From assembly GCA_024449915.1 (NCBI GenBank), contig JAMZAV010002009.1:1-64000 (forward strand): a stretch of DNA of 64,000 nt, read 5' to 3'. Below are positions 6,472 to 59,986 of this stretch, one piece after another. Numbering within the stretch: position 1 is the stretch's first letter; the number at the start of each line of letters is the position of its first letter. The position numbers and the translations under genes were made by a program. The notes under the pieces were generated by a model. That model was not told the DNA's origin, ran no database searches, and saw only the letters and a list, made by a program, of their open reading frames with translations. Origin of the DNA: Sweltsa coloradensis. Lineage: Eukaryota > Arthropoda > Insecta > Plecoptera > Chloroperlidae.

Positions 6472-6797
6472 GAATGATACTTCGAGATTCCGAGACAGCT
6501 TCCATCCTGACATGGTTTTCGTGGTTTCCCATAGTCCGAAGAGCAAATGCTAGGATGGCGACGAGAAATCGGCCACGACCGTACACAGCAGAAAGAAAAC
6601 ATCATCTACAAACTATATTATAAATGACTTATTTTAGTTAGAGTTAAGACAAAGTAATAATGTAGGTATGTAGGCCTAATATAGATAGGCCTACACATGG
6701 AAGTACTTGACGTAAGTCCGTACAACATGTTAGCTCCGGTTTTGACCGAGTTTGTATGAAATACATCCAATAAAAAATAATAATAATAATAATAATA
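6472..6797 (+). other. 3'UTR and (AAT)n tail of the RLE-LINE
   Basis: About 300 bp after the polyprotein stop, matching 14285-14512 in the second copy. It ends in an AATAAA-like signal and an AAT run. Two TAGGCCTA palindromes (6671-6678, 6686-6693) are present here but not at the corresponding place in the second copy. Confidence 0.75.
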
Positions 6798-7449
6798 AAT
6801 CAATGTCTTTTCTTAAACACATATAGGCCTATATACATAATTAAACTAGGATCATGATAAAACATGTTTCAGTGGGGAAAGGTTCAGAAGGAAGACGGCT
6901 TACCTTAAATAAAAATGTTAGGTAGGTCACACAGATATAAATGGATTAAAATTTAAAAGTACTAGTTGCTGATACGTTTCCAGCAACTTGTGGTCATTAT
7001 CACTCAGTGTGAGTAGAGGTTAGGGCCCATACAATTATTTTACACAATTTTATTTTCATAAGTACACATTTATATTCACGGTACCAATTATAAATTCACA
7101 ATGGAAACAACACACGTCAAGTCGTCAGGTTTCAATCAAATAATAGTAAGCTGATTTTTATTGAACTGATGCAGTAGCCAATCGCATCACTGTTGTCGAC
7201 ATCATTATCCACAACGTTATCGAAACGGCTCCATCTTGGTCTACTGGCCAACTTAACATTGATGAGAAGGGATATAACCATTCTTTTGGCAAGACAATCA
7301 CAGGGGTTGTTTTGTAAGTCCATACCAGAGCCAGCATTAAGATGCCCTATAAATAACAATAAGTATTATTACCAACCAGCTTCAACTCCATATAACTAAG
7401 CAAATCATCATTAATTCAATATTATATACATATAATAGCATTTACAGAT
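6798..7449. other. No gene seen
   Basis: No homology recognised; short reading frames on both strands around 7130-7400 look like chance. Confidence 0.5.
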
Positions 7450-7738
7450 TTTATTTTTATCCATAAAGGGATTGACAAACGGAATGATAAGGTTGGAGCT
7501 GTCTTTGTTGATCTTAGGAAAGCATTTGATTAAGTACCTTTTTTAACCTCTTTTAATAAAACTAAAAACCAGGTATAACATAAGTCCTTATTTAGTATGA
7601 TTGGAGAAGGGTTGACAGGTTGGGAAAGCATAGAGAACATAAAGAACATAAAACCCAGCCTGAAGGGCTGGGGGCGACAAAACTTTTCACCTGCTGATGA
7701 CAACTGCAGCTAATTTAAATTTTTTTAAAGTTGTTTGT

Positions 7739-7795
7739 TACCTTAATCCACGACGCGTTTCGTCCTTCTGGGACTCATTAGGCGGATGGTGGCCA
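7739..7795 (-). ncRNA. Hammerhead ribozyme, degenerate copy
   Basis: Reverse complement of the ribozyme at 8316-8372 with one change in the catalytic core: CTGATGAG has become CTAATGAG (invariant G to A). This substitution in the conserved core should abolish or greatly reduce cleavage. Stem II (GTCC/GGAC) and GAAAC are kept. Confidence 0.75.
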
Positions 7796-8089
7796 CTAAA
7801 AATCGGCTAACTACATGCAAAAAAACTCACAACACATAACTAAACCTGTGGTAAGGCCACGCAAGAAGTAAATTCTGCATGCATGTTATCATCAGCAAGG
7901 TTACTTCACACACCATTCATACTGGGGCACACAGTCAGCACAGACAGTAAGGGGACTTCCCTCCCAACTCTGCTGTGTTGTGACTTTCCACCCTTCCTAT
8001 CTCTAACCTTTTCTCTTAGAATGAATGAAGAGGCACCCTTGCCCAGCAACAGCAGGAGGGGCAGCTTTTCTCTTGTTGCCAAGGGTCCT

Positions 8090-8100
8090 GGTTCGAATCC
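8090..8100 (+). promoter_or_regulatory. RNA polymerase III B box in hammerhead element copy 1
   Basis: GGTTCGAATCC is a perfect match to the tRNA T-arm/B-box consensus GGTTCRANNCC. It is preceded by GTTGCCAAGGGTCCT and sits in a tRNA-like 3' half. No convincing A box is seen at the usual 30-60 bp upstream. Confidence 0.55.
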
Positions 8101-8315
8101 AGGGTAAGTCATGGATTTCTTGTCTCCCGAGCACCAGAGTTTGGGAGGGAAGCCCCCTTACTCTCTGTGCTGACGGTGTGGCTCAGTATGTATGGTGTGT
8201 GAAGTAACCATGCTGATGATGATAACATGCATGCAGAATTTACTTCTTGCGTGGCCCTACCACAGGTTTGGTTATGTGTTGTGAGTTTTGTTTGCATGTA
8301 GTAAGCTGATTTTTA

Positions 8316-8950: not shown

Positions 8951-9437
8951 CAGGGTTGCCACTTTCAAGGATATTATCCTTTTCTCAGGATTTTTAGAGT
9001 GTCTCAAGGATAACAGGATTTTGGGCAAAATCTTAGGATTTTCTACTGTCTTTAAAAAATACATTAAATTAATACATTTTTAAATTCAGCCAAAAAAAGC
9101 AATGTAGGCAGTAAAAAACATCAGGAACTAGTAAAAATAAACATAAGTGACTGCATAGACCTCACATTTACCGCAAGTGGTAGTTATGGTGAGTAGGCCT
9201 AAAAGTAAAACGTTAAAATACATTGGAAGAAAATTCTGATTCTTATGCGTTTGTCTGCACGTAATTTTGACTAGATTCTCGAAAATCAGGCTGGCATAAC
9301 ATATTTTGGTATGAAACCTGAAAATTTGTAACATTCCTTCGCGGTTATAATACGCTAATGCTGAATAACTGTTTTCAAGGATTTCTCAGGATTTTTTAAG
9401 TATCTTTCAAGGATAAAAAAATTGACTTGGTGGCAAA
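8951..9437. mobile_element. Possible hAT-like MITE rich in an AAGGATT motif
   Basis: Starts CAGGGTTGCCACTTTC and ends near TTGGTGGCAAAG, giving a short inverted TTGCCAC/GTGGCAA terminus. The inside repeats CAAGGATA / CAGGATTTT about eight times near both ends. No target duplication was found, so limits are approximate. Confidence 0.4.
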
Positions 9438-14215: not shown

Positions 14216-14512
14216 ACTAATGTATACATCAAGACTCAAAAGGCAGTAATACTCAACACGTGTAGAATAGTTTGTAAATTCCTAAACTAAGAATGATAAT
14301 TCGAGATTTCGAGACAGCTTCCATCTTGACTTGGTTTTCGTGGTCTACAAACAATATTATTCTCGACTTATTTTAGTTAGAGTTAAGACAAAGTAATAAT
14401 GTATATAATAATGTAGATATGGAAGTACTTGACGTAAGTCCGTACAACATGTTAGCTCTGGTTTTGACCGAGTTTGTATGAAATAGTACATCCAATATAA
14501 TAATAATAATTA
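14216..14512 (+). mobile_element. RLE-LINE 3' fragment (5'-truncated)
   Basis: Starts in the last codons of the polyprotein (TQKAVILNTCRIV.KFLN, stop at about 14290) and continues through the 3'UTR to an AAT-rich tail. It matches 6405-6797. The 5' end adjoins the end of hammerhead element copy 2. Confidence 0.8.
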
Positions 14513-15843
14513 AAGTAGACAGATTAGGACAGGTTGCAAAGCCCAAGTTGACTGTCAGAAGCGGGCAACGGCGGTGAATAATGGTGATGATGTAGGCAAT
14601 TCTACATGTAATTTTAAGATAAACATGTATCATTTGTAAGTAAAACTCAAAAGTCTACATCAATCTAATGGAAACATTTGATCTAAAAAACTTACCCCAA
14701 TAATCCGTAGTGCAAATGTTACGCCTAATTTCAGTTTGAGGTTGGATGCCCGTCTCTTGTGTACTGCAAAACAAAACATCAATGAACTGAAGAAACATAG
14801 GCCTAGCCTGTAACACCGGCAACCTTGTGCTCTGAAGAAACATACATAGGCCTAGCCTGTAACACCGGCAACCTTTCGAAGGAGGCGCCTAGGTTGGTGT
14901 AGGTAGCAGCTCGATACCTGCTGTGCCGTCTCGTCTAGAAGGTTTAGTCTATGTTCTTGTAGCAATATTAAATCTAATTTTTAAGACTGCTGGGGAGTCT
15001 GCGTTATGCATGCTTCTCTCCAGAGATCGCGCTCCGACTCCCCTCAAAGCTAAAAGCTAGGTACCGGTACCGATTTCGTTTTTCGGGTTGCCTTTGCTGT
15101 GATCAGGGAAAAATCATGAATTTGTTTAGCCCTCGCTTAGCTTGTTCAGAAGATTGAGCCCATTGTCTTGAAAATGGGGGCATAGCTGATAGTTCCATGA
15201 CGATGACCTGGCTCTTTTTAGTTTGACAGTCATCAGAGCAGGCATAGACAGACAGTGAGCTATAGCCTATATATCACAGTGTCTGAATGTCATTGTAAAT
15301 ATAAAATTTAATTTGTTATCAATACTGCACTTAGAAAGAACAATTTTTTTGTATGAAATTTAAATAGTAGGCTATATTTGACAATTTCAAAGTAAACTGT
15401 TATACTAATTACAATTTCATCTAGGCCCCTAATCTCATTTTGTTGTGCAGGCAACTTTTTTGCATTGTGTGTTGATTGGGAGAACACTCGTCTTGCACAT
15501 TTTTTACATTTCACATGCACATTTTACAGTTGATAATGTGATATAGGCCTAGATTGTTTATAATGATATAACTACATAATGTACACCAACCATGAAAAGG
15601 TTTTTCCCATGCAGAAATGTCACATTTTTTACACATGTGTTGTTTGTGCATAGTCAATTGCGGGGGGGGGGGGGGAGCTTCACAAGATGTTAGCCCCCCC
15701 CCTTACCCGAAATGTCACAACGTACACTCCTGGGGTAGGGGGCGTTTGTGCACGTATTCATTTCGTCTGCTCAAAAACGATGTGACGATGTGAAATATAT
15801 TAGTATAATAATAGTTCCCATAGAATGTAATCTGCATATTAAC
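14513..15843. other. No gene proven; tandem duplication and G run
   Basis: A ~46-bp segment (GAAGAAACATA..GGCCTAGCC TGTAACACCGGCAACCTT) is present twice in tandem at 14788-14825 and 14834-14874. A run of 14 G lies at about 15662-15675. On the minus strand a GTAAGT donor-like site occurs near 14685-14700, but no matching coding exon could be supported. Confidence 0.4.
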
Positions 15844-27345: not shown

Positions 27346-28135
27346 AAGGAAGCTTTGCAAACACTTTTTTAGACGCGTTGTTGGATGAACGTAATTGTTT
27401 AAAAACGAAAAAAGCGTAAAATTGCGATTTTCATAAGAAATAATTATTCGATTACGCTCAAATTTCACACGAATATTAATTCATAAAATTAAGGTTCTGT
27501 GAAAAAATTATTACAATCAGATAAAGCATGTAGGTGTAATAAGTCAAAGAAATGTAAAAAAAAACAACAAAAAAACGTGAAATTGTGATTGTCGTGAAAT
27601 ATTATTTTTCGATTGCGCTCAAATTTAACAAAAATATATTAATTCATAAAATTAAAGTTCTGTGAAAAAATCATTACAATCGGATAAAGCATGTACGTGT
27701 TAACAAAGAAATTTTAAAAATCGAAAAAAATTTGTAAAATTGCAATTTTCATAGGAAATAATTTTTCGATTGCGCTCAAATTTCCAACGAATATATAAAT
27801 TCATAAAATTAAGGTTCTGTGAAAAAATCATTGCAATCAAATAAGGCATGTAGGTGTTATGAATCAAAGAATTTTTTTAAAAATCGAAAAAAAATCGTAA
27901 AATTGCGATTTACTTAGGCCTAGGCCTAAAAAGAAATATTTTTTCGATTGCGCTCAAATACGTGGCAGTTCTAAGTTCAGAGATTTTGAAGGCCTCCACA
28001 AAATTTCATCGCATTTGGAGTATAGGTTTAGCCGGAATCGTGAATACAAAGAAAAAAAAAAAAAAAAACATTCCGGCTTTTTTTCTCCAGTGTAGTGAAA
28101 TGGAATCTTCGCTTCGCTCGCTACGCTCATCCAAT
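27346..28135 (+). repeat. Repeat family A, copy 2
   Basis: Opens AGGAAGCTTTGCAAACAC..GTTGGATGAACG; has three internal units starting AAGGTTCTGTGAAAAAAT at about 27490, 27654 and 27808; closes TCTCCAGTGTAGTGAAATGG and CTTCGCTTCGCTCGCTACGCTCATCCAA. At 27908 a TAGGCCTAGGCCTA insert interrupts a segment that reads GCGATTTTCATGAGAAATAA in other copies. Confidence 0.75.
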
Positions 28136-30748: not shown

Positions 30749-30823
30749 TAATCTTTGCCGTTGAAGCGCCCTGAAACTACTAGGCCTAATACTAATAATA
30801 CCAACCGAAAAAGAATTGAATAA

Positions 30824-36424: not shown

Positions 36425-36481
36425 GTGGCCACCATCCGCCTGATGAGTCCCAGAAGGACGAAACGCGTCGTGGATTAAGGT
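36425..36481 (+). ncRNA. Type I hammerhead ribozyme (copy 3)
   Basis: Core identical to the copies at 8316 and 14025; predicted cleavage after C36469. Stem I CCGC/GTGG with outer ACC/GGT, stem II GTCC/GGAC with loop CAGAA, minimal stem III. Confidence 0.85.
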
Positions 36482-37932: not shown

Positions 37933-39093
37933 GGCCTACAGTTTAAAATTTAAATATAGTAATTTAATTATTTTTAATGAAGGTATGTTATTTATGTTTA
38001 GTACTATGCTTCTAGATGTTGTAGAAGCTGCAAAATAGATATTTTTATTGCACCATTAGGTTTTTAACAATTAGGCCTAGGCTACTAACTTAACCAGTAC
38101 CGTAACACATGGCACTTTCAGCGTAATTCCGTTACCAGTCAAAAACCTGCCTGAAAACTCATTTAAAATAAATTTAAAATAAAATAAATTTGTGCTAAAT
38201 TTAGTTCAATTGAAGTCCTATGTAAGTCAGTTTATAGAACAGTTATACAAGGTTACCTTATTTGAAATATTGTCTTTTGAATGTGTTGTTAGCTCTCTGA
38301 AATGTAATTCCGTTACCGTGGAATTGCCCTATTGCATTACTAGCTCCTTACGTCACGTCATAGGAGTTCAATCCTCGGTCACTTAGGCCTAGGCCACACA
38401 AAGCTTAGGCCTAGGACCGCGGCACAATGAGAGTTCAAAAAGGCCTAGGGCCACCACCTGCTGGATTTACGACTATGTTTTCATGAGGATGGGCAAGGTC
38501 ACTGATTTTTTAATTAAAATAAACACTACTTTGGTTTATTATGATTCAGAAAACTTAATCCAAGATCGCGGAAGGCCTAGGCCTATTGTGATTTCAACCT
38601 AGCAGCTGACGTTTGCAAGTCTACGAGATGCTCGACAAGTTTCACGATTTCATTATTACACTTATTATCAGGAGGATGTTGCACGGGATTTAGGGTTGTC
38701 GGTGGATTCTCATATTTCTCTCCAATAACGTCAGATGAAGTTAAAACATAATTAAGAATGGTTTCGTGTTCGCGTCGATTTTACGCCTAGTTTAGGCTTT
38801 GATGGTTTAGGCGTCCGTCTCTTTGTTACGTGCGTTGTTGGGTAGCCTGGAACTTGACCTTGACTTTTTGATACCACTTCGTTTTTGGCGAGTGGTTAGT
38901 AACTGGCCATGCTGCGCATCAGGTTATGCGCGGTAGTTGTATTGCAGGCGCGGTAATTCAAATGCTAGATTGTAAAAAAAGCGCGGTCGCAAGATAAGTT
39001 ATCTGCGATTATCAATTTGCCAACTCGCAAGCAACAAATTTTCACTCGCAAATTGCGAGCTTGCGAGTGGGATTGTCGAGGGTTGCTCTCAAG

Positions 39094-40150
39094 ATCTCTA
39101 CCCATTATCTCATCCCTCACCATTCAAGACACGATCCCTTCTTTTTGTGAACCTCACCCATTTACACTTATCTATATTCAAACTCATGCCATTATTACTT
39201 ACCCAAGTTCCCAGAATCCCCATATCATCCCTAAGTTTACCAATGTCCTCTATATTTCTTATCACCCTGTAGATGATGCAATCATCTGCAAACAGCCTCA
39301 CCCTGGCCCCCATCCCCTGTGCTATATCATTTACATATATCGCAAACAAGAGAGGACCCAAGACACTCCCTTGGGGGACTCCCGAGGTTACCTCGGCCTT
39401 TCCAGACATATCATTGCACACCCTAACCCTCTGACTTCTGTTTGTTAAGAAGTCCTTTGTCCATCTGATAACCCATTCATCCTCTATTACTTCTTCAACC
39501 TTAGCTAACAATTTCTCATGCGGGACCTTGTCGAAAGCCTTCTCGAAATCTATGAAAACTGCATCAACCACCCCTCCTCTATCCATGGTTTCCCCCAACT
39601 CGTTCACCAAGTCCAACAGTTGGGTTTCACAAGAATATCCTTTTCTAAATCCGTGCTGACTTTCAGACAACCAGTTTTTCTCTTTTATTTCATCTTTTAT
39701 TAATTCACCAATAACTTTCTCCATTATTTTTGATCCTATAGACGTTAACGAGATTGGTCTATAGTTACCAAGTTTCCCCTTCTCCCCCCCTTTATGTAGG
39801 CCTATAGGGATTACTGTGGCCTCCCTCCATCTGTCCGGAATAGTTCCATCTTTTAGCGATTTCTCAATTATCTCCCCCATGTACAATGCTGTCTCCCCTA
39901 ATGCAAGTTTTAGGAAATCCACTCTATGAGTCCATCACTTCCCGGTGCTTTCCCATTCTTTATCCCTGCCACTATCTTGGTTATCCTGTCAATGCTGACC
40001 TCAATGATCCTGTCCCCTCTCACATCTTTGGCTACCCTAGTGCATCTTGTCTTATCCTGGAACACTCAAGCATAATATGTATTAAGAGCCTCTGCCTTCT
40101 TTTTATTATCAACTAATAACTCACCACTATTTCCTTTCAGAGTAGGTAAG
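39094..40150 (-). mobile_element. LINE-B copy 2, RT-bearing part
   Basis: 5'-truncated at about 40150. Reads on the minus strand into 34025 across the hAT-like insertion. Jockey/CR1-like APE LINE by RT motif wording. Confidence 0.75.
39110..39922 (-). pseudogene. LINE-B copy 2 reverse transcriptase
   Basis: 270 codons uninterrupted: IPDRWREATVIPI, GNYRPISLTSIGSKIMEKV (motif 2), QHGFRKGYSC, FIDFEKAFDKVPHEKL (motif A), TSGVPQGSVLGPLLFAIYVNDI (motif B), RLFADDCIIY (motif C, catalytic FADD), MSLNIDKCKWVRF (motif D). Sense continues beyond 39094 but is cut by a transposon, so the protein cannot be completed. The Gly-Leu in VIPIGLHKGG is coded by a GGCCTA insertion (see findings). Confidence 0.85.
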
Positions 40151-40439
40151 TCACCACGTAGGTAGACGTAGGACGTAGGTAGACTAATTCATAGTTTCAG
40201 TGACTAACTAGTGACCAGGGGGTCAGGTTTTTAAAATCGCCTATGCGTTTGCAGCCACTGTCAAAACGTAATCCAAAACGGAATCCTATCCCACCTTATT
40301 TGGCACTTCTTCGGTTGTTATAGGCCTAGGCCTACCCCAACTTTTTAACAAGGGGAAAAGTAGGTTAGGGGGAGGGGGGGGCGCAAAGCGCGTTTGTTTT
40401 ACAATGCATTGGTATTGGTTTCTCTATCCTACTAATGAC
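40151..40439. other. Spacer between the two LINE-B copies
   Basis: Short repeats of GTAGGTAGACGTAGG at 40150-40185; otherwise nothing recognised. Confidence 0.4.
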
Positions 40440-40694
40440 AGTAGTCGGTGGTAGGTTTATTCATCCTTCCTTCCTTCTTAGCATCCTTCATATTCTTAAT
40501 CCTCTTGGAATCCCTTTTCTTGTTTACTTCCCATCCTATTTCATGCGTTATTTCATTCCCTTTTGTTTTGCGTCTTCAGCCCATGTGTAGGCCTACTTCA
40601 TCACACTCATGGATGAATCTCAGAGAGCTTGACCAGTGCTCTCTCACTTTATTTCCCTCTCTCTTACTAATCTAATCAGGGTGAGCCTTAGGCA
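40440..40694 (-). mobile_element. LINE-B copy 1, 3'UTR portion
   Basis: In sense (minus) this continues the 3'UTR of LINE-B copy 1 across the gypsy element and ends in a GGAAGGAAGGATGAATAAAC purine-rich tail. The 4-bp target duplication GGCA (40691-40694 and 49764-49767) marks the LTR insertion. Confidence 0.55.
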
Positions 40695-40932
40695 TGTTAT
40701 ACCTACTTGGGCTTTCAGGTGCAGGATGCGGGCAACAATCACGAGTCGATCCATACTTAAAGATGAATGTGGTTTATTGAATATAATGACACAACACACA
40801 GTAAACACAGTTAAATAAACGTTCGTAAGAGGGTGGCGCAAGTCGGCGGGCGGACTGTCGGGCGGCCATGTTCTCTCTCTGCCTTCCTCCCCTCACTGCC
40901 TTCTTGACTGCCCCAGAGGCGGGAATATAACA
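40695..40932 (-). repeat. 3' LTR of gypsy element
   Basis: 238 bp, identical to 49526-49763, beginning TG and ending CA. The minus-strand AATAAACCACATTC near the middle could serve as polyadenylation signal. Confidence 0.9.
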
Positions 40933-41213
40933 ATCGGCTGTCCTGACATATAATTGTCCCTAATTATAACCAATATTAGATAGTTTAAAGTGATTCTAAT
41001 TCTAACAAAATTACAAAACACTATTGATAAATAGGTAAATAGGAATCATATTACGATGCACTTATTTCTAAAGAGATGTCATCTTAAGTAAATGGTTGAT
41101 ACCAGTTGCGAGTTCTAAAAATACTGTACAACTAACCTACAAGAAAAACTAATATCTGAAGACAGTTACTGCAATTATGCCTAGTGCATATTATCTAAAG
41201 ATAAGATAAGATT

Positions 41214-42617
41214 CTACTTTGATACGTAGTCTGAAAGATACTTCGAAGCGGCTCGGACTCTTGTACCACGGCTCCGGGTACAGCTGGAGTCTTGGGCTTC
41301 TTCTTCATCCTCATCATTGGAAAGCTCGGAAGTGGGATCACCATCATCGACCCGGTCTACGGAACCCCATGGCTTCAACAATGACACGTGCGAGACAGTG
41401 GAGTAAAACCTCCCTCCCTCAGGCGAATAAAGCTGGGACACCCGATACGTGTCCCCTGGTAGGCAAGCCGTAATGACTAATGGCCCGCGATACTTCTCCT
41501 GCGTCTTCGTGGGTTCACCGGTGTGTGCAGGTACACGTCGCATGGCCACGATTTCGCCCACATCGTACTGGGTGGCTATGTAGCGCTTTCGGTCGAACGA
41601 CTCCTTGAACTTCTGCTGCTTTTCTGCGATGCTGTTCCGCGCCTCTGCTTGAAGCGTTGAAGGTGCATGCCACAGTTCTTCTTCCTCGATGTCAGTCACT
41701 ACTTGGTAATGCCCATCATGGAACCTGGGCCGGTAACCATGAAGGACTTCGAATGGGGTTTTCCCCGTAGTCTTATTCACGGATGTATTCAGGTTCCTTT
41801 CACATGTTTTTAACTTGGCATCCCAATCCCTTTGATTTGGATTTTCGATTGAAGTTGTTATAATAGGAACCAGGGCGCGGTTGACGCGTTCAACCTGGCC
41901 GTTGGCCCTCGGGTGTCGGGTTGAATTCAGGGTGTGGGATATCCCTCGTTCGCGGCAATAATCTTCCAGACCCCGAGAGGTGAAGCAGGCTCCACGGTCG
42001 GAGATTAGGCGCATCGGTAGTCCACGTTCCTCCACGAAACTATCCAGGCATTTGATTAGTTTCTTCGTTGACACATCGCGAGTGGCGTACAAGTGTGTGT
42101 ATTTTGTCAGATTGTCAATTATTACTAAAACATACTGGTTGCCCTTTGCACTTGTGATGAAGGGGCCCAGGTGATCTATATTTACAACTTCGAATGGGCG
42201 TCTTCCAGGAGTTATCGGGTGTAGAAGGCCAGGTTGTCTTCCTCCCGGGACCTTGGTGAGCAGGCACTCGAAACAATGCGCCAAATGGTGTTTTGCATAC
42301 CTCTTCATTCCGGGGAACCAATAATGCTCCCTTAACTTCGCAATCGTTCTATCCAAGCCAAAATGACCAGACAAATCATGCGCTTTGACCAACAAACTTT
42401 TCCTCATCGTCTTGGGTACCACGAACAATGTTCGGTTCTTGTCACCCATTTTGATCTGTTTGTAGAGGATTCCGTTACGTAGAACCATGTCAGGTACAAG
42501 CGCCTTTTCATGTGTGTTACGCTCGGCAACGGGCTTGCATAAAATTCCAATCTTGACCTTAAGTTCATCATCGGCGTGCTGCATCATTGTGACCTGATCC
42601 TCGAGACTCGTAGTCAC
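41214..42617 (-). pseudogene. Gypsy integrase (C-terminal pol)
   Basis: 467 codons from the first Met, same frame as the RNase H piece upstream. Zinc-binding HHCC (H-DLSGHFG.., KHHLAHCFEC), catalytic core with D (VVNIDHLGPF), D (LISDRGACF) and E (NGQVERVNRAL), then a GPF/Y-like KYRGPLVI segment. It would join cDNA to the target. A single in-frame TAA at 42648-42650 separates it from RNase H, so a full pol cannot be made from this copy as read. Confidence 0.85.
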
Positions 42618-42650
42618 AAAGACACCAAGACGTTCTCCAACGCTATCTTA

Positions 42651-43093
42651 GGTATCGGCACTGTTCTCCGTAGGTGCTCTGCTTAGGGCGTCTACATGGG
42701 CCATTTTAACACCCGGCCGATGTCTAACTTCGATGATATCGTATTCTTGTAGCAAATTAAACCAGCGGGCAATTTGAGGATTGTCGGTTTTCTTCGTATT
42801 CAAATACACCAATGCTTGACAATCCGTAACTACGGAAAAGGGTATTCCAAGCAAGAATTGACGTAGTCGGGCGAGCGTCCAGACTATGGCGGTTAATTTG
42901 AGCTTACTTGAATGGTAGAATCGCTCAGCCTCTGTGGTCTTCTTGCTTACACAATAGACTAGATGAAGCTTTTTGTCAGTTCCTTCTTGCAGAAGCTTTC
43001 CGGCTAATCCCTCGGAACTAGCGTCCGTATGGACTTCGGTCCTAGCCTTCGGGTTGTATAGACTAAGAGCTGGTTCTTCGGTCAGTGCTTTCT
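42651..43093 (-). pseudogene. Gypsy RNase H-like domain
   Basis: Part in one frame (FSVVTDCQALVYLNTKK, RWFNLLQEYDIIEVRHRPG, HVDALSR) is the end of the RT-linked RNase H. Its N-terminal half lies in the same region after a one-base shift near 43094-43100, where the previous frame stops. Typical position between RT and integrase. Confidence 0.75.
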
Positions 43094-43516
43094 TCAGAAC
43101 TTAAACGAAGCGTGCTGATCAGATTCCCACGCAAATGGCTGATCTTTCTTCAACAGACGTGTCAACGGTTCTGCCTTCGTTGCATGGTGTTTGATGAATC
43201 TTCGGAAGAAACTTGTAAGGCCAATGAACCGGCGAACTTCATGTACGTTCCTTGGTATTGGGAAGTCTGATATAGCTGATGTCTTCCTTCGTCCTGGTTT
43301 CAGGCATCCTGCCGTTATAGCGAATCCTAGGTATTCGATTTCGGATCGTCCGAACTCACATTTGCTCAAGCGCAGTGTAAGCTTCGCCTTTCGTAGTGCT
43401 TCAAATACCAATCTCAGCTTGGCGAGCATTTCGGGCCAGTCCTTGCTAGCAATTAGAAGGTCGTCGAGATAACACATCGCAACAGTGTTTCTCAGAGAAC
43501 CAAGTGCGCGATTCAT
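43094..43516 (-). pseudogene. Gypsy reverse transcriptase, C-terminal part
   Basis: 140 codons: MCYLDDLLIAS is RT motif C (YLDD), then LSKCEFG and YLGFAI (motif D/E) and HEVRRFIGLTSFFRRFIK (connection). Separated from the upstream RT by a short frame-disrupted stretch at 43517-43560 where two small indels lie. Confidence 0.85.
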
Positions 43517-43548
43517 TACACGTTGAAACTCAGCAGGTGTGCATTTTT

Positions 43549-45486
43549 TCAGCCAAAAATCATTCGGTTAAACTCTCCGGTTTCATCGGGGGTCACGAAC
43601 GCGGTTTTCTCCTTGGCTTCCTCACTTAACGGGATCTGTAGGTAGCCGTGAGCCAAATCTAAAACCGTGAACAATGTGCATCCAGACAGTTGTTCAAGTT
43701 GCTCATCCACATTCGGAATCGGAAAGTTCTGTTTCACCGTCTGTAGATTAAGTTTTCGATAATCCACAACTAAACGTTTTTCCCCATTTTTCTTTTGGAC
43801 AATGAGAACTGGGCTAGCATATGGGGATTGTGTTTCGCTGACAATTCCCAACTCCTTCCACTCGTGGACTATCGTTTTAATTGCATCGCGATTTGCTGCA
43901 GTGGCATGATATGGTCGGCATTGCACGGGGTGACTTCCTGGAATTTCCTTTATATCCATCTCGGCCAAATCGGTACAGCCAAGTTCATCTACTGACTGGG
44001 CGAACACATCTCGGTACTCGTAGACAAGCTCGTGTAGTTGCTTACGATACATGTCGGGCATTTTGTTATCGGTGGCAAGATCTTCAATTCTAATTGGTGA
44101 TTTTGGGACAATCCTCTCATGACAGGCAAGTTGGGTGATGATCTCCGCTTTTTCACCTCTGACAACACATTTTCCCTTTTCGAGCAGTATGTCCTGGTCG
44201 GACGAGTTTCTAGCCGGAACAATACATTCTCCACCTTCAATACTGGTGAACAATGGTGATTTCCCCTCGACTTCTTTAATAATGACTTGATCATTGTCAC
44301 TTCCATTCTGCATAACCTTTACGAACTGAATAGAATTCTTTTTCAGAATAACCTCATCATTATTAACCAGTTTTGTAGTGGTACAGATCGGGTCAATCTG
44401 CATATCACGGAAAGGTTCATCAAATCGATTACCAATAGTTAGCTTATCGTCTAATTTGACAAAAGCCACATGAGGCAACTCGGTCCAAGTGCGACCGATA
44501 AGGATTTCGATATCCTGCGCTTTGTCGGGCACTACAAGTACAGTAATATTCTCACCAAGCACACCATTAATCTCCAAGTTTACAGTAACCTTACCTAGTG
44601 GTTGGATTGCTTCCTGCGCATTACCAAATCCGTACAGTGAACTAGTTGTCGGTTGAACTTCAACTCCACATTTAATGGTGGCGGAGGTCTGCATGGTACA
44701 GCTTGAACTGCCACAATCTATCATCCCTTGTAGCAAGAAAGAATTATTTACCTTGACGGTCCTCAAGTATTTGATCGGGTTGACACCCTCTACACTGCTG
44801 ACTTGAAGTACTTGTCCACTCGATGATGACTGCTGTTGCTTAGGGTTCGGGCAGTGTCGTTGCGTGTGCCCATCTTGGTTACACTTCAGACAATGTAGGA
44901 TTCTTTTCGGGCTCGGGCAGTCTCTAGCAATATGTCCATATGTGCTGAAGTTGTAGCACAGCAGTTCTCCAGCGGAATTTGGAAGAGGTGGTCTTCCCCT
45001 AGCAGGAGGATTTCTATTGTTTTGCAGAGGTTTTTCTTCTGTTTTCACCCCGGCGTTTACAGGTATAGGTGAGACGCTCGAAGTTGCCTGTGGCGGGCGT
45101 CGAGAGTATCCTTTCTTGGGATCCTCATTGGAGCTACGTTGTGAGTTTATTCTTCCACTTCGGGTAGTATTTAATTGTTCGAACTCCCTTAGATCGTTGA
45201 GTAACTCGTCCAAATCCGTGTGACGCGTTGAGCTGAGTTGGGAGCACAACTGATTTGACCACAACCCCAAGAGTATTTGCTGCTTTGTGTCATGAAAAGA
45301 CAGCTTGAGTTCGTTACAATATCTTGCTTTTTCATGGAAATACGCATGAGTATTTTCACCTTTTATCTGGACTCGGCCTTGCATCCTATTAAAGAGATCT
45401 GGTAGTGAAAGTGTTCCTATGAAGGTTTTTCTGAAGTTGGTCTCGAATTCTGCCCAGGTTCTCATCTCTCCAACTGCGAGCAGCAA
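43549..45486 (-). pseudogene. Gypsy gag C-term, nucleocapsid, protease and RT N-term
   Basis: 645 codons in one frame, so gag and pol are fused without a programmed shift. Order: capsid-like region; two CCHC knuckles (CYNFSTYGHIARDC, a variant with Phe-Ser at positions 2-3, and CLKCNQDGHTQRHC); protease with MIDCGSSSCTM in place of the usual D-S/T-G; linker; RT with YASPVLIVQKKNG, RLVVDYRKLN and FTVLDLAHGYLQIPL (motif A). It ends in a frame break right after NRMIFG. Confidence 0.9.
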
Positions 45487-45963
45487 ACCAATGTTGTGCA
45501 GCTCCCGTGAGATTCATTCGGGCAGACTCCAGCATAAACGTTTCTGGCCACCTGTGTAATTGGGCCAGGGCCTCGATTGATCGTAACCACTCCTGAGCCA
45601 AACCGCAATCACCATCGCCTGCAAACTTTCCAATAGACTTGGTAAATCAGGCATAATATGGTACGACTCAGTAGGTGAGGGCTGCTGTGTTGTTGGTAGG
45701 CCTATGCGGCTAACCAGGTCCATCATTATTTGATCCCTTCTTCTATTCTCTTCCATCATCAAGCGAAACATTGATTCAGTGGACGATGCAGTGCTACCTG
45801 GTAGGCCTACTTGTGGTTCTGTCTGTACATGAGATACATTTTCAGGAGTAGGCATGCTTGAACTATCGGTTAAGTTTTCATTTTCATGTACCATGTCTAC
45901 TAGACCTTGGTTGGTACAGGCAGCAGCTAAAGTAAACAAAGGGTTTTCGTTTTCCATTGGCAT
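45389..45963 (-). pseudogene. Gypsy gag, N-terminal part
   Basis: The first frame (45514-45963) begins MPMENENPLF and includes MMEENRRRDQIMMDLVSRIGLP. A second frame (45389-45601) carries WLRSIEALAQLHRWPETFMLESARMNLTGAAQHW, typical gag capsid wording. Two single-base shifts are needed to pass to the 43549-45486 frame. VGLP and IGLP, each encoded over a TAGGCCTA, occur twice. Confidence 0.75.
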
Positions 45964-46638
45964 AGTGAAGGCTGATTAAGTAGTTATGCATACATAAAAC
46001 ACAGTTACAATTTTCAAAAGACAGTGCAAGATATAATAGTCAATCAATTTGATAACATGTTGCATTCAATGGACATTTACTAGTTCATTATTTTTGCGTT
46101 CGAGGTTAACAGAAATTATTTTCGAGTTCAAGGTTAACAGCTGATCTGCAGAATAAAATATTGTCGTGTGTAGGGGAACATGCTGTACCTTGGACATAGT
46201 CGTACCTTGGACCATTCAAGATATCTCTGCTATCTTGTGGTAAAAAAAATAACTAAAATTTGTAGTTGTCAATTATACCACTAGGTGTCAGACTATGTCC
46301 AGCTGGGATGGTGGTAGAAAACCTAGCATCATAAAAAAGAAATTGTGTTTTCAACCATTCAAAGTAAGTATTTTGCATGTTACTATTTTGTTTTGAAAGC
46401 CTTCAATGATAATTTATTGCTAAAACACTTTTTTAAGTCTGAGAACCATGTTTTGATGTATAATTATACCAAATACATAAAACAGGCAACTTAACCTCAA
46501 ACTAAATTGGAGGGAAATCAAAAAGCCATGTGCTTGGTTGTACCTTGGGTCACCTTATAGTAATGTACCTTGGACCATGTCCAAGGTACATTTAACTTGG
46601 CATTTTCTTTACCATGGTATGTTTTGTTTCTTTAGATA

Positions 46639-47058
46639 ATGCCACGAAGTAAGGAGGGCAAGGTGAGGGTGAAAATACCCACTAGGGCTACTGATATAGA
46701 AGCAGCTGCAAATAAAGTAATTTCTGAAAATGTGTCCGTTCGACAGGCTGCATTAGCTTACAATGTTCCTCGTACCACTCTTCTTCGCCATCTGACTTCT
46801 TTCAAAGCATCTGATGCAGATATGTTTGAATACAAGGCAAACAATGCTGTTAAGAAAGTATTTGAGGTGGCTGAGGAACTTGTACTTGTTGAATACTTAA
46901 AAACAGCTGCTGCACTACACTATGGGTTGACCATACACGAAGTTAGAAAACTGGCATTCCAATATGCCAAGGCCAACATGAAAACATACCCACCATCCTG
47001 GGACGAAAACCAAGAGGCTGGAGTCCAGTGGTTTTCGTTTTTTTATGGCTACATATAA
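46639..47058 (+). pseudogene. Tigger transposase, DNA-binding N-terminus
   Basis: 139 codons. Residues ~15-55 (AANKVISENVSVRQAALAYNVPRTTLLRHL) are a psq/CENP-B type helix-turn-helix that would bind the terminal motif. A second HTH_CENPB-like segment follows (VEYLKTAAALHYGLTIHEVRKLAFQYA). The frame ends prematurely after WFSFF at a run of eight T (47037-47044), where one base moves the reading into the next frame. Confidence 0.85.
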
Positions 47059-47869
47059 GAAGGATCTGTCACTACGAAAACCTGAGGCAACTAGTTTATC
47101 CCGCTTAACTAGCTTCAACAAAGCCAATGTACAAACATTCTTTGGCAATTATGAGAGGGTACTTTCCAAACACAAGTTTCCCCCACACCGAGTATGGAAT
47201 GTTGATGAGACAGGCATTTCAACAGTGCATGTCCCCCCCAAAATAATTTCAGAAAAGGGGGTAAAACAGGTAGGCAGTATGACTTCTGGTGAACGGGGGG
47301 TAAATACCACTATGATTGGTGCAATATGTGCTACTGGAAACCACATTCCTCCATTTATGATATTTCCAAGGGTGAACTTCAAACCATACATGATTAAGGG
47401 AGCACCTCTTGGTACCCTAGGAGCTGCAAACCAATCTGGTTGGTCAAATGAAGATTTATTTGCCCAATGGTTGGAGCATTTTATTGCTCATACCAAGCCA
47501 TCCCTGGAGGATCCAATTCTACTTTTAATGGACAATCATGATAGCCACACTGCCCTTAAAGTAATATGTAGAGCTAAAGACGTTGGCATTACTTTGCTTA
47601 CTTTTCCACCGCACACTAGCCACAAGTTCCAACCTTTAGACAGGACAGTCTTTGGGCCTTTTAAAACACACTACAACAAAGAATGTAAAACCTTGATGCA
47701 TAAAAAGCCTGGTAAACCAATTTCAATATACGAAGTTGCGGAGTTGGTTGGTGCAGCATTCCCATTAAGCTTTACCACGAGTAACATCCAAAAAGGCTTC
47801 GAAGTTTCAGGTATTGTACCATTTAATCCAATATATTTAATGATGACGACTTTTTGGGTTCGTACGTAA
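47045..47869 (+). pseudogene. Tigger transposase, DDE catalytic domain
   Basis: 274 codons in frame 2. DDE_1 motifs: VWNVDETGIS (first D), LLLMDNHDSH (second D), then PPHTSHKFQPLDRTVFGPFK and a third acidic residue in the helix region. Catalyses cut-and-paste at TA. The frame changes again near 47835, at a T5 run, to the 47854-48285 frame. Confidence 0.9.
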
Positions 47870-48605
47870 CCGATAGGCCTTGTCCAGATGCTGAACAAAC
47901 GGATGAAACAAACACATCCATGATCAATGTTGGAACCAAAACTTCCAGTGGATCTATGTCTACAGACCCAGTCCCAAACACAAAAACTCTTTCGCCCCAG
48001 GACATTCGACCATTTGCCAAAGCAGCACCAAGAAAGGCTAAATCAGCTGGGAGGAAAAGGGGTAAATCAACGATTTTAACTGACACCCCGGAGAAAAATG
48101 CAATCGAAGAGAAACTACGGCTCAAGAGCAATAAAAGTAAGAAGTCCGGCATCTGTAAGGCGTTGATTAAGCCCAAGCCTAAGAAATTTAAAAAGCAATC
48201 ACCGAAGACGAACAATTGTCCGACTATGATGAAGATAGGCCTAGGTCTACTCCACTATCCTCCGCATGTGCAAGTAGTACGATGAAGGACTCGATTATAG
48301 ATCCGGTTGATGCTCCTTTCAAAGCAGGGAATTGGGTTGTGGTCCAGTACCCAGTAAAGAACAGTAACGAGCCGAAGTGTTGTGTCGGTCAAATCATAAA
48401 CAGAAACAAGGATGATTCATACAAAGTTACTTTTGTTCGTCACATTGCGGAGTATCGGTTCCGATGGCCAATGCAAGAAGATGTCGATTTCGTCTCCGAA
48501 AACATGTTTTTCAAACTTTTAAGTGATCCATCAGTTCACTTTAAAAATGACAGAGTTCTGTGTTTAATTTTTGACAATTGCTTGAGCAACTTGCAGCTGT
48601 ACTAA
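47854..48605 (+). pseudogene. Tigger transposase, C-terminal region
   Basis: Two frames: 47854-48285 (basic linker rich in Lys, AGRKRGKST) and 48216-48605 (VDAPFKAGNWVVVQYPVK..CCVGQI then YRFRWPMQEDVDFV). The second is a small beta-rich C-terminal module often found after the DDE domain in such invertebrate transposases. The shift falls at an A5 run near 48190. Confidence 0.75.
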
Positions 48606-49050
48606 GTTATTAGTGCATTAATTGGCACATTCTGTTTTAGGAACCATAATAATCAAAATGGTTGGCCTAAATAATATTTTTATTCAATTGAACAATATAA
48701 CTTTACACTCCCACTCTTAAATATGAAGTAACAAGAAAGAAAACATTAAGTATAGGCCTATCCTACAATTTCCTATGGAATTTATGTACATGGTCCAAGG
48801 TACAAATCATATGGTCCAAGGTACATCCCTATGCTGTACCTTGGACCACTTTGCACTAATTATTAAAACAGTTAATTTATAGTAATAATTGTAAAGTGTA
48901 TTATACAATAAAATCAACAAAGTTTGTACAAGGCATGTTCTAGCAAATACAAAAAAAATTAACCAGATTCATCATCTCCTTTCTACAGAAAAAATATAAA
49001 TGTAAAAAGTGGCCCAAGGTACAGCATGTTCCCCTACAGTTGGCAACGTT

Positions 49051-49763: not shown

Positions 49764-51350
49764 GGCAGTAGCTTTAGTGACTTTTTAATCCTTTAATATC
49801 ATTTTTGCCCGCTACGCCCTCTGTCAGGCCATTCCACTCCACCACCGTTCTGGGCAAGAACGAGTTCCTTCCTACATCAGTAGCCCATGTCCCTCTCTCA
49901 TATTTACACTTATGATCCCCTCTTGCCAGATAGTTAGCCTTCCTTAAAAGGTTATTCATCTCTCCCCATCCTTCATGAGCTCTAGTCACCCTGTACATTT
50001 TCCCTAGTCTGTCCATCCTTTGCCTATCCTCCAGCTCTTCCCATCCTAGATCCCTTACCATACCGGAGACACTTTCATACTTCCTTACTAGGCCCCTACA
50101 TGTCCATTTACTACTTCCTCCTTCCATGTAGGCCTATTTCCCTTTCTAAGTACCCTTCTTGCAGCTCTCTTCTGTGTTGCCTCTATCTCCTCTACTTCCC
50201 CCTTCCTATACGGGTCCCATATAGCTCCTGCATACTCGACCACTGGGCTCACAAGAGTTTTGTATGCATGTCCTTTTAATTCGCTTCTTGCCCCTTTTAG
50301 TGTCTGCATAACAAAATTAAGGCACCTGAAACCCTTCTTTGAGACCTCCTTGACGTGCTCCTCCCAGCTGAGATTATACTGCAGCCACACTCCTAAATAT
50401 TTAATTTTTGCCACCTTTTCCAGTACCTTCCCCATGAGTGAGTACCCTTCCCCTAGGCCTCGGATTATCCTCCTTCTTGTAAACCTTGCCCATTTATCAA
50501 TGTTAAGGCTCATCTCATTGCCCATTAGTCATTACCCATTCCTCAAGCCTAGTCAAGTCCTGTTTCAGGTCTGTTACATCCCTACTGTTCCTTATGATTC
50601 TGTATATTAGGCCTACGCAGTCGTCTGCGAATAGTCTTACCTTGGCCCCCATCCTGTCGGCAATGTCGTTTATATATATTGCAAACAGTAATGGTCCCAG
50701 TACACTCCCTTGGGGTACCCCTGATGTCACTTCCACTTCATTCGATAGATCCTCCCCTACCTTGACCCTTTGTCTCATATCCCTGAGAAATTCCTTTACC
50801 CATCTGTTAACCCAATAGTCATCTATTACTCTTTACAGCTTCCCTATGAGTTTGTCATGGGGAACCTTGTCAAATGCCTTTTCAAAATCAATGAAAACTG
50901 CATCCACAAGTTCCCCCTTGTCCAGTGAACTAATCAGGTCATTTGCTAGCCCTAAGAGCTGAGTCTCACATGAGTACCCCTTTCTTAACCCATGTTGGCT
51001 TTCTTTTAGCCACTTTTTCCCTCTTATGATCTCCTTTATGTAATCCCCCCACTACCCCTTCCATTATCTTGGATCCCACCGATGTCAGTGATATTGGCCT
51101 ATAGTTAGTTTCCCCTTCTCCCCTCCCTTATGCACTGGTATAACAACAGCTTCCCTCCATCTTCCAGGAACTTCCCCTTTTTCCAGGGAGGCTTCTATTA
51201 ATGTCACTCATAAAGAGCACAGTCTCTCTCATTGCAAGTTGCATAAAATCGCCCGTGAGCCCATCCTTCCCAGGAGCTTTCCCCTTCTTAATTGTTGCAA
51301 TTATCCTAGTTAGGTACCTTAATTTAAGTGCTTGGTATGAAAAATAAACC
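49764..51350 (-). mobile_element. LINE-B copy 1 (RT-bearing part)
   Basis: Minus-strand, 5'-truncated at about 51350, and cut in its 3'UTR by the gypsy element. RT pieces: 51128-51352 (IIATIKKGKAPGKDGLTGDFMQL), a middle piece with GNY-like and AVFIDFEKAFDKVPH around 50850-50920, 50515-50778 (TSGVPQGSVLGPLLFAIYINDI, RLFADDC), 50088-50525 (KYLGVWLQYNLSWEEHVKEV, LKGHAYKTLVSPVVEYAGAIWDPY) and 49774-50127 (MDRLGKMYRV, HEGWGEMNNLLRKANYLARGDHKC, SFLPRTVVEWNGL). Frame shifts and stops make it dead. Confidence 0.8.
50515..50778 (-). pseudogene. LINE-B copy 1 RT, motifs B and C
   Basis: 87 codons. Motif B TSGVPQGSVLGPLLF and motif C RLFADDC followed by VGLIYRII. Copy 2 reads RLFADDCIIYRVI, so Gly-Leu is extra here and is encoded by GGCCTA within TAGGCCTA (50608-50615). 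The insertion lies two residues after the catalytic aspartates. Confidence 0.85.
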
Positions 51351-56725: not shown

Positions 56726-56911
56726 GGGACAGTAAATCAAAGCGACCAAGCCAACCCTGTAGGCCCCTACGCAATCGACGAGTCTACTTGTCATTTATTT
56801 GTCATTCTTATGCTAGACTCAGGCTTAAAGTTATTAGAGTAGATTGTTGCAGCACCACATTTTGTTATGTTTTACGCTTCTTGCTATAGGCTACCTAATT
56901 TTAAATTTTAG

Positions 56912-57032
56912 CCAAACAAGATGTCCGACTACCTTGGCCAGAAGATAGGCCAGGAAAATATCTCCACTTTGTTTTGTACAAAGAAAACATGGATACTATG
57001 GAAGCAGTGAATTACATCGCAAGCAGATTCAA
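56912..57032 (+). CDS. PUS7: PUS7-like exon 3
   Basis: 121 bp between acceptor TTTTAG and donor GTGAGT. Encodes KQDVRLPWPEDRPGKYLHFV.. LYKENMDTMEAVNYIASRFK. The HFVLYKEN.DTM.A segment is a family hallmark (human PUS7 reads HFVLYKENKDTMDAI) just before the catalytic region. It starts with two bases of a split codon (completed by the G of exon 2) and ends with AA, completed by G of exon 4. Confidence 0.92.
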
Positions 57033-57928
57033 GTGAGTATCAAAATAAGCTAAACGTGCATTGGCCTTGTAGGCCTAATGTAGACTTTATCCTACGTTTT
57101 GTTGTATCTAGTCCAATTAGGGTTACCAACTTGACCGGAATGAAGCTAAACATGCATTGACCTTGTAGGCCTTGTAGACTTGGTATTCTCTACATTTTGG
57201 TTGTGTCTAGTATTGCAATTTGGATTTCAAACACCGGAATTCCCTTTCTGGATATGATCTCTTACAACAGGGGATTGGGGGGCATTATTTATTTTCCTTC
57301 AACTTTTGATTTCACTCTACCCTGAACTTCCTATTTGTAGGCCTACTTTTGGAACCCGGAATCAACTTAGAGAAATGAGTGCCTAGTAGTGATGAGACTG
57401 ACCTTAAATATAGAGTAGGCCTACCATTAACGTGAAAATTTGTAGTCTCTAGTGCAAATATTTTCTGATTGAAACGTACGTAGACCCTATATCTTTGACC
57501 CCCTGGAAGTTAAAAATTTGGAGGTCAATATGATCCGTAAAGTAGGCCTATATGAGCAATTCACTGGATGCATGTTCTAAGAGATTTTTTGAATGTACAT
57601 TTACAAATTACAGTTACCTAGGGATAATATACATAATAATAATAATATATACATATATAATACTATTATATGGGTTTCGATGGGGAAGATCGACTATAGA
57701 CCCGATATTTGTACTTTGACAAGCTATGGAGAAAAGTTGGGAGATGGGTAGAAAAATGAGTATGGTCTTCCTAGACATTGAAAAGGCGTATGATAGTGTG
57801 CCAAGGAATGTAGTGTGGGAAAGCTTGGAAAGAAAAGGAGTTGACAAAGGACTGATAGACAGGGTTAGAAGTATGTAGGAGGCCTACAGTACATAGTATG
57901 TGAAAGCTGTGTAAAAACACAGTTTGGG

Positions 57929-58282
57929 ATGTCAGGGTGGTTCCAAATAACAAAAGGGCTGAGGCAGGGAAGTGTGCTGTCACCACTGCTATTTATAATA
58001 GTGATGGATGACATACACAACAAGGTAAAGATGGAGGAAACGGAGGAGGTAGAGGTTATGCTGTTTGCCGATGATTTCGTGGCGTGGCCAGAGTATGAGG
58101 AGGTACTCCAGAGATACACAACCTCTGGAAGAGACATTGAAGGCCGGCATGAAGATAAGCGTGAGCAAGAGCAAGGTTGTTACCATGCCAGGAGAAGGAG
58201 ACGTAAGGAACTATCATGCAGAGATCAAGATTGGAGAAGAAACCCTGGAAGTGGTGGAGAGTTTTGGATACCTAGGAAGTGA
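57929..58282 (+). pseudogene. LINE-C RT, motifs B and C
   Basis: 117 codons: MSGWFQITKGLRQGSVLSPL then LLFIIVMDDIHNKV and MLFADDFVAWPEYE with the catalytic ADD. After the ADD the homologous frame changes (58065-58625). Confidence 0.75.
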
Positions 58283-58882
58283 AATAATGGCAAGCGGGAA
58301 GATGAAAAAGGAAATTACCAACAGAATACAAAAGGCCAATAACTTTTACCAGTGTGTAAAAGGCCTGGCGTGGGATAGGGAAATAACCCATACAGTGCAA
58401 GATGACACTATACAAGACCTACTTCATACCGATCCTCACATATGCGGCAGAACCACAGAAAGCTGGATTATTGGTGATAGAGAAGAAAGACAAATACAGG
58501 CGGCGGAGATGAGATTCCTGAGGAGCACAGTGGGCAAGACAAGAAGAGATAGCATTAGAAATATGAACATCAGAGAGATGCTTGGGGAGGAGAAGTTAGC
58601 GGCAGGATGGGAAGGACACGGCTGAGATGGTTTGGGCATATGAAACTAATGATGGAAGAGAGGATGCCCAGGAGAATGTATGAGAAAAGGATTGAAGGAG
58701 GAAGAAGAAGGGTGAGACCAAGGAAGAGATGGAAGGAGACCATAGCAAGAGACCTACATAATAGAAGAGAGAGCTGGGAGGATGTTGCAGAGACACAATT
58801 GTGGGAGGATAGAAAGAAGTGGAAGAATTTGGTTGCGAAACCCAAGCTGACGCTGCCAGAAGTAGGAAACGGCAATGGTTAA
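58065..58882 (+). pseudogene. LINE-C RT thumb and C-terminal domain
   Basis: Two frames, 58065-58625 and 58607-58882. Contains GMKISVSKSKVV (motif D), FGYLGSEIMASGKMKKEI, then the WFGHM / RPRKRW basic region and PKLTLPEVGNGNG end. The junction of frames at 58607-58625 is a single-base change. Confidence 0.7.
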
Positions 58883-59827
58883 TGATGATGATGATGATGA
58901 TGATGAATTACCTACTATGCAAAATTCATCCAACACGATTTTGTTTTATTTTGTACGTTAGTGCATCTTCCAAGGCAATTACCTTCACAAAGTAGCAACA
59001 AACAGTCTTAACAGCAAACAAGTAGGTAAGCTTACAAGGAAAACTTCAATTCTAGAAGATAAACAATGCTTTTGGAATCCTCGTACTATTAATATGTAGG
59101 CCTCCGCCTAGACGTAATTTGACATTTTTACAAATTCCGGACAATGTGCCGTCCGGAACAAAGCAATTCCTCCATCCGGACAAACACATTGAAATCCGGG
59201 TTGTCCGTAGAAATTCCGGACAGTAGGCAACCCTAGAAGTCCAATATGAAAAAAATGACTCCCAATAATAATTGATTGGAACTAAATTGATGAATTTGGA
59301 ATCAAATCTAGAACTGTTCTACTACTCAAGATGCAGTAAACATGAAAGGTTACATATCGGCCTCTTTACCCTGTTTTGCAGACGAAGTTGATCTTGAGAA
59401 AAGAGGAAGCTATAAACCGACGGTGAACTACGGTATTATAAAGACCATTAGGCCCTACGACTTAAAAACAATAAGTTTAGGCCTAGGGCTTATGATACAA
59501 TTTCAATTCCTAGATTTTTTTAAACTTTCAGAAAAAAATATTTATACTAGGGCCTACCTTGTACTAAGTGGTTTAACCAATGAGATAGTAATATGTGTAG
59601 GCCTATTGCGATGGTCCATTCGTATTTAAAAAAAAACACTTGTGTAGGCCTAGTAGTAGTTGATATAGGGCCTAGGTTGTATTTGAGAAGTTTTGTTTTA
59701 AACATTAATTTTAATTTCAATGTAGTACTATTATAAATATTCGATTGAGAGTTATTCTGTATCATAAGGCAACAGTGTCAGCTGGAGAGAGACCAATACA
59801 GGTTTATTATAAGTATTATTACCTACC

Positions 59828-59986
59828 TACTAGGAAAACGCTTAAGTTCCGCCGCATTGATGGATCACATAGGCCTATGCCGTTTGCCCGGTAGCGTGCG
59901 AACAAACAGACAGAAAAACAAAAAAACATTGGAGCTAAATTTTTTGAGGGGTCAGTGAAATTGAAGTCTTTGCTTCGCTCATCCAA
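59828..59986 (+). repeat. Repeat family A, minimal copy
   Basis: 159 bp: AGGAAAACGCTTAAGTTCCGCCGC joined directly to GCCGTTTGCCCGGTAG..AACAGACAG and GTCAGTGAAATTGAAGTCTTTGCTTCGCTCATCCAA. No internal units. It shows the head and tail of the family without the middle. Confidence 0.7.

Follow-up and report, generated by a model that had tools for sequence, protein, structure and literature searches.

A palindromic octamer at TA sites of Sweltsa coloradensis as a probable excision footprint of transposons with GG...CC ends

Introduction

The DNA considered here, 64,000 nucleotides (nt) of the plecopteran Sweltsa coloradensis (contig JAMZAV010002009.1, or C2009, positions 1-64000, referred to below as the window), contains a single palindromic octamer, TAGGCCTA, so often that its origin requires an explanation. 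The initial annotation, made from the letters of the window, proposed that the word arises by the insertion of six nt beside TA, and attributed it to a tiny templated insertion, a mini-element or biased repair. We have followed up this proposal in the window and in the rest of the assembly (1.449 Gb in 16,871 contigs), and the sequence comparisons point to a different agent. In our reading, TAGGCCTA is probably the excision footprint of transposons that duplicate TA on insertion and have GG...CC ends, and a pogo-superfamily element at 46171-49036 would be one of their sources.

Abundance of the octamer

The window holds 61 copies of TAGGCCTA, while 100 dinucleotide-preserving shuffles gave a mean of 0.80 and at most 3, and the whole assembly, for which the initial annotation had called for a count, holds 472,299, as opposed to 8,817 of the same letters reversed. 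A 264-kb sample, formed by the window and 20 arbitrarily placed 10-kb stretches from other contigs, contains 139 sites. In the same sample, 24 palindromes built on permutations of TAGG or TACC as half-sites were counted, of which the runner-up, TACCGGTA, reached 15 and the rest no more than 9. Additionally, the observed/expected ratio of 58.7 is the highest among all 256 palindromic octamers, followed by 27.1 for GCCTAGGC, which belongs to a double form of the word, and then by 7.0. Chance and composition are ruled out as its origin by the shuffles, the octamer ratios and the rearranged palindromes, and the excess claimed by the initial annotation is real.

The double form, TAGGCCTAGGCCTA, is found 26,568 times in the genome, and once with its letters reversed. 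As these doubles compare with 472,299 sites, a tandem repeat (GGCCTA)n or a telomere-like unit is also ruled out, and neither the window nor the 200-kb sample contains a triple GGCCTA unit, let alone an array of many units. The sites are clumped, with 0-14 per 10-kb stretch, at least one in 18 of the 20 stretches and a variance/mean ratio of 2.5 across 132 bins of 2 kb. In the window, there is a cluster of ten TAGGCCTA at 30405-31967, and double forms lie at 27915-27928, 35505-35518 and 40321-40334, the last two being common to contig C14858 (see below). An extreme cluster, with 30 copies within 3 kb, is in L002 1-3014 (C1:788-791 kb).

Insertion at TA dinucleotides

Comparisons between repeat copies indicate that TAGGCCTA arises by insertion at TA, which is converted to TA-X-TA, where X is the filler. 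In a long interspersed nuclear element (LINE) called LINE-B, the word at 39797-39804, inside the reverse transcriptase (RT) open reading frame (ORF), appears in the alignment of LINE-B fragments as a derived TAGGCC insertion, because only the window copy and C14858 have it, whereas the other 18 fragments, some of which do not span the site, show no sign of it. There, copy 2 reads VIPIGLHKGG and copy 1 VIPVHKGG, while, at 50608-50615, it is copy 1 that carries the added Gly-Leu (DDCVGLIYR, compared with DDCIIYR in copy 2), exactly as the initial annotation had described. Likewise, the word at 9194-9201 corresponds to TA in the L023 paralogue, and that at 61485-61492 is inside a 490-bp repeat (about 61290-61781).

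Other comparisons made in the initial annotation are less clean than it had suggested. For instance, the two copies at 6671-6693, in the 3' untranslated region (UTR) of the RLE-LINE, are indeed missing from the sibling copy at about 14400 (two TAGGCCTA in 6601-6800, none in 14336-14525), but the gaps are of 7 and 10 nt and not of a clean 6. In family A, position 59868 reads CATAGGCCTATG as opposed to CATATATG, as announced, with the word at 59870-59877 corresponding to TATA in the copy near 28533, but the net difference is 4 nt and not 6. The extra tandem reported for this family also exists, at 27915-27928 rather than at 27908.

Events were counted in two multi-copy alignments, one of LINE-B (19 fetched fragments plus the window copy, that is, 20 rows) and one of the 490-bp repeat (40 rows), in which the TA state is the consensus. 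Among insertions of 4-12 nt, the TA-X-TA shape was found in 5 of 16 in LINE-B (simulated mean 0.30, maximum 3 of 300) and in 19 of 52 in the 490-bp repeat (simulated mean 1.78, maximum 8 of 300), and among deletions in 0 of 8 and 1 of 21, respectively. Together, this makes 24/68 insertions, some of them A/T-rich and possibly due to slippage, against 1/29 deletions, and supports the view of the initial annotation that insertion at TA, and not common ancestry, explains the word.

The process also seems to be recent. Contig C14858 (14 kb), which may represent the second allele or have arisen by recent duplication, in an assembly where haplotypes may be uncollapsed and heterozygosity very high, is 95.2% identical to the window over 6.4 kb, and other pieces of it 83-97% (31901-41469; L044, L045). 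In the 6.4-kb alignment, the only 6-nt indel is the TAGGCC of the word at 35469-35476 and the only 4-nt indel is the TAGG of a TAGGTA (X = GG) at 35381-35386. C14858 has a plain TA at both places, so both indels turn TA into TA-X-TA, and the activity suspected by the initial annotation is borne out. Thirteen TAGGCCTA sites of the window could be aligned to C14858, of which nine are common and four are not: one is cleanly absent there, and the other three are altered by point changes or a 1-nt indel.

The filler and its context

The commonest X is GGCC, accompanied by GG, CC, GGC, GCC, GGGC, GGGCC and longer fillers; CGGTACC, GGGGGACC, GGCCCTA, TTAGGC, CCAG, ACC, CT and, in LINE-B, TTG were also seen. 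A single GTAC site (consensus position 120 of the 490-bp repeat) received GGCC, GGC and GCC in different copies. Across the 264-kb sample, GGCC in TA-NNNN-TA is 23.5 times above background and CCGG 4.5-fold, and the 5-nt fillers GGGCC/GGCCC are 18 times above it. On both strands, TA-GGCC-TA was counted 278 times against 4.7 expected, TA-GC-TA 104 against 106 and TA-GGGCCC-TA 2 against 0.2. The flanks are also biased, since G..C around TAGGCCTA is 4.16 times and T..A 0.13 times as frequent as expected, and the first base before the word is G at a frequency of 0.35, compared with 0.19 at all TAs.

A resident transposon with matching ends

The DNA transposon at 46171-49036 (+ strand, both flanking TA included) is a candidate source of such fillers. 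It has the structure TA|GGGGAACATG...CATGTTCCCC|TA (its ends may also be written TAGGGGAACATGCTGTACC...GGTACAGCATGTTCCCCTA), and its inverted termini, TA|GGGGAACATGCTGTACC...|TA, comprise 21 exactly complementary bases inward from the TA, at 46173-46193 (left, + strand) and 49014-49034 (right, - strand). Two overlapping ORFs in different frames, both on the + strand, encode an HTH_psq DNA-binding domain (46636-47058; PF05225, Pfam E 3.6e-9) and a DDE_1 transposase domain (46982-47869; PF03184, E 8.3e-23), the latter with 283 relatives (best identity 64%) in insects, Hydra, a brittle star and fish. By its TA duplication, inverted repeats, DDE_1 domain and helix-turn-helix, the element is assigned to the pogo superfamily of the IS630-Tc1-mariner group.

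A search with the left end found at least 40 loci, including the window (the best 40 of 230 candidates), that are 97-100% identical. While the match of the window itself begins at query base 1, the other 39 begin at bases 18-31, around the TA at base 22, and these identities and starting points suggest that the family moved recently. Flanks were also retrieved for 20 additional copies, of which 19 have both ends and one, C76, lacks the right end where it was expected. In the 20 two-ended copies, including that of the window, TA is present on both sides (in C1695, the right TA is preceded by an additional C), and the flanks shown differ among all copies. G precedes the TA in 15/20 and C follows it in 9/20, or in 10 if C1695 is counted, a preference that runs in the same direction as the first-base bias around TAGGCCTA. 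Additionally, the C1337 copy occupies a TA directly adjoining a TAGGCCTA, so elements land beside old scars.

The link between element and word was examined at the exact sites that the element occupies. The joined flanks of 14 pogo copies were searched, in three queries, and unoccupied paralogues were obtained at nine sites, where the paralogues have a single TA in eight and TATA in one (C384). Sixty of the 109 listed paralogue rows were fetched, and a scar was scored only if X was at least 2 nt long and at least half G/C. A G/C-rich TA-X-TA was found exactly at the occupied TA in 5/60 unoccupied paralogues and at 2/1,117 other TAs (p=5.7e-6) or 1/314 context-matched TAs (p=4.8e-4), p-values that serve as a guide because the paralogues share descent and the rows are not independent. 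The five scars are GGGCC (L120) and GCC (L124) at C531, GGGC (L172) at C2882, GGCC (L153) at C384 and CCGG (L155) at C2035. A first count, on 40 copies, had given 3/40 against 2/764 (p=0.0011). If the 49 unfetched rows are taken as negative, the proportion is 5/109 (p=9.3e-5 against all TAs and 5.0e-3 against context-matched TAs), and dropping L155 leaves 4/59 (p=8.0e-5 against all TAs). The C2035 copy also has TA-CAG-TA before the element, where 9/10 paralogues have a single TA, and therefore this site was hit more than once.

Excision footprints and competing explanations

We propose, as the probable explanation, that TAGGCCTA is an excision footprint of TA-duplicating transposons with GG...CC ends, the pogo family of the window being one source. 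A cut-and-paste transposon with such inverted termini would enter a TA, preferably one preceded by G, to give TA-GG...CC-TA, and on its exit each broken flank would retain two terminal nucleotides of the element (GG on one, CC on the other), so that joining would produce TA-GG-CC-TA. The palindrome would thus be a direct consequence of the ends being inverted repeats. If one side were kept, GG or CC would result; trimming would give GGC or GCC, and trimming or filling the rarer GGGC, GGGCC and longer forms, while the double form would come from insertion and excision repeated at a TA of an existing scar. We infer the excision step, the chemistry (2-nt overhangs, as in Tc1) and the origin of the double form. 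The residues are of 0-4 nt between TAs (with longer X too) and match the terminal nucleotides of the element, with exceptions. The same reading also accounts for the Gly-Leu insertions in reading frames.

Nevertheless, several observations weigh against this explanation. Fillers such as CCGG, CAG, TTG and CCAG are not expected from GG...CC ends, and the first three would require repair or elements with different ends. A few scars at TATA targets gain GGCC alone, without an extra TA, which may be explained by TA/TATA variation; the C384 pogo copy has no extra TA relative to its TATA paralogues. The exact-site test compares paralogues and not the same allele, 55/60 unoccupied copies lack a scar of this kind at the exact TA, and, at the window's own pogo site, 6/6 unoccupied paralogues have a plain TA. 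Without L155, and with unfetched rows as negative, the result against context-matched TAs falls to 4/108 (p=0.016), and a preference of the elements for certain targets could account for some of the overlap between scars and elements. The more distant flanks also disagree, since A at -4 to -6 has a frequency of 0.47-0.65 at pogo sites and of 0.28-0.36 at TAGGCCTA sites, and C at -1 one of 0.10 and 0.27, respectively; therefore, either the pogo family is not the sole source or the context has eroded. Finally, the 472,299 scars exceed the listed pogo loci (at least 40) by orders of magnitude, so that other or extinct GG-ended families, or a long and high turnover, must be assumed; in the 264 kb, no other abundant TA family with GG ends could be established. 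Most of the copies, we infer, come from GG-ended families that are older than this one or distinct from it.

Among the alternatives, the least improbable, and still an unlikely one, is that double-strand breaks specific for TA, made without any element by a transposase or another nuclease, are extended by an untemplated polymerase that prefers G, leaving GG on each 3' end and GGCC after joining. The variable, G/C-rich fillers (CGGTACC, GGGGGACC, GGGC) would be expected from such tailing, and tailing of both ends would place GG before CC. However, exactly two plus two nucleotides dominate when the counts of TA-GGCC-TA are compared with those of TA-GC-TA and TA-GGGCCC-TA, and scars sit on TAs that hold a GG...CC-ended element in other copies, both of which speak against it. 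The mini-element, or templated 6-nt insertion, of the initial annotation is considerably harder to sustain. GGCC is the most frequent product and TA is duplicated, as this idea requires, but partial and longer forms (GGC, GCC, GGGCC) occur at the same TA sites, and 4 nt are, on general knowledge, too short for inverted repeats bound by a transposase. In fact, neither a mini-element nor biased repair alone is needed, as the inserted letters are the outer nucleotides of a resident GG...CC-ended transposon, partial forms stand beside GGCC and scars lie on TAs that are occupied by the element in other copies.

Slightly less credible still is a protein-binding motif held at high copy and spread by selection, as a palindrome of the HIP1 type might be. 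TAGGCCTA is palindromic, very abundant and clustered, up to the 30 copies in one 3-kb stretch, but it arises by insertion within LINE coding sequence and repeat copies, 4/13 window sites differ in C14858, and 11 of its 12 single-mismatch variants exceed expectation (up to 3.8x), the pattern that decaying scars would produce. That TAGGCC was ancestral and lost in some copies, or is an assembly artefact, is the most remote of these options and one for which no support was found, given that TA is the consensus, that the TA-X-TA shape was seen in 24/68 insertions and in 1/29 deletions, and that the word is present in 18/20 sampled stretches of different contigs.

Relation to known systems and significance

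Excision of Tc1 leaves a 2-nt overhang. Footprints are already known in this group, and it is the abundance of a single palindromic word that is unusual. Cell assays gave footprints of 0-4 bp with Passer, a pogo element, and 0-3 bp with ZB, and 2-4 bp is quoted for Tc1/mariner (PMC9976928, PMC7913693); PMC4423477 mentions that the ends of the element leave short 3' overhangs at excision breaks. The footprints of Tc1, Sleeping Beauty, ZB and Passer resemble ours in the few nt left at TA and in the TA duplication. By contrast, here one product, GGCC, is found at hundreds of thousands of sites, together with longer X. Passer, an active fish transposon of the pogo superfamily, shares with the window element (PMC9976928) the TA duplication, short inverted repeats and pogo-superfamily transposase, while the window element differs in its GGGG...CCCC ends and HTH_psq domain. 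The comparison of polymorphic DNA transposons between Asian and African rice (PMC4423477) similarly read footprints and filler DNA from genome comparison, but its 94 putative excisions included eight perfect ones and others with deletions and/or fillers, whereas here a 6-nt product is largely uniform. No description of such a word as a footprint was found among the titles and abstract openings listed by searches of the open-access literature.

A different kind of precedent is HIP1, the highly iterated palindromic octamer that is over-represented in cyanobacteria; the two are alike in this property, but the present word arises by insertion at TA and is tied to transposons.

Footprints of excision tend to be so short and diverse that they cannot be counted, and, if one octamer marks them, a string search would count cut-and-paste exits, so that the tally of one short word may record past transposon departures. 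If this is true, the exit rate could be measured against that of point mutation (2 G/C-filled TA-X-TA indels per 6.4 kb at about 5% divergence), and exit frequency, germ-line location and break repair would become testable in ordinary genome data. A broader version of the proposal seems to us evenly balanced between true and false: nearly all of the approximately 470,000 TAGGCCTA would be scars of departing GG...CC-ended TA transposons, excision would be a leading source of short insertions in this lineage and the TA-NN-N'N'-TA palindrome spectrum of any genome (here GG >> CC > TC ends, with the simple repeat TATATATA excluded) would read out its departing TA transposons. In that case, the spectrum would be informative even after the elements vanish, and scar clusters would mark the regions of most frequent element mobility.

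Other repeats and features

Other candidate elements were considered. An abundant miniature inverted-repeat transposable element with TAGGCC...GGCCTA termini was rejected: on the two strands of the 264 kb, 140 TAGGCC continue with something other than TA, and the hexamer that follows them most often does so four times. Several TAGG...CCTA pairs proved, by eye, to be hAT ends with an 8-bp duplication (34349-35065; L022 7786-8201) or, in L008, to lie within an inverted repeat of greater length. The large inserts examined by eye in the LINE-B copies, the 490-bp repeat and C14858 included no GG-ended TA elements. At L022 489-1024 and L023 3069-3224 there are two shorter elements of the form TA-GG...CC-TA, also bounded by inverted repeats, which are possible further GG-ended families.

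The hAT-type element at 34349-35065 (TAGGG...CCCTA) is flanked by the 8-bp duplication CCTATGTT (34341-34348 and 35066-35073) and is missing from C14858, and it is probably a recent insertion. In the 264-kb sample, TACCGGTA (6.5x), TATCGATA (3.7x) and TACTAGTA (2.6x) are also enriched TA-palindromes, which TA elements with CC, TC and CT ends may have left as scars. GGGGGGGG and CCCCCCCC are 44-fold and 31-fold above a second-order model there, and the words AC|TAGGAAAACGCT and AC|TAGGGAAACGCC recur behind differing upstream sequence, probably as the ends of another repeat family. Downstream of the ten TAGGCCTA in the region 30405-32792, an RGG-rich ORF without a Pfam match (32445-32792) may be a host exon. 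The ORFs at 41214-45975 resemble, by eye, a gypsy-type long terminal repeat retrotransposon, with zinc knuckles, RT and integrase.

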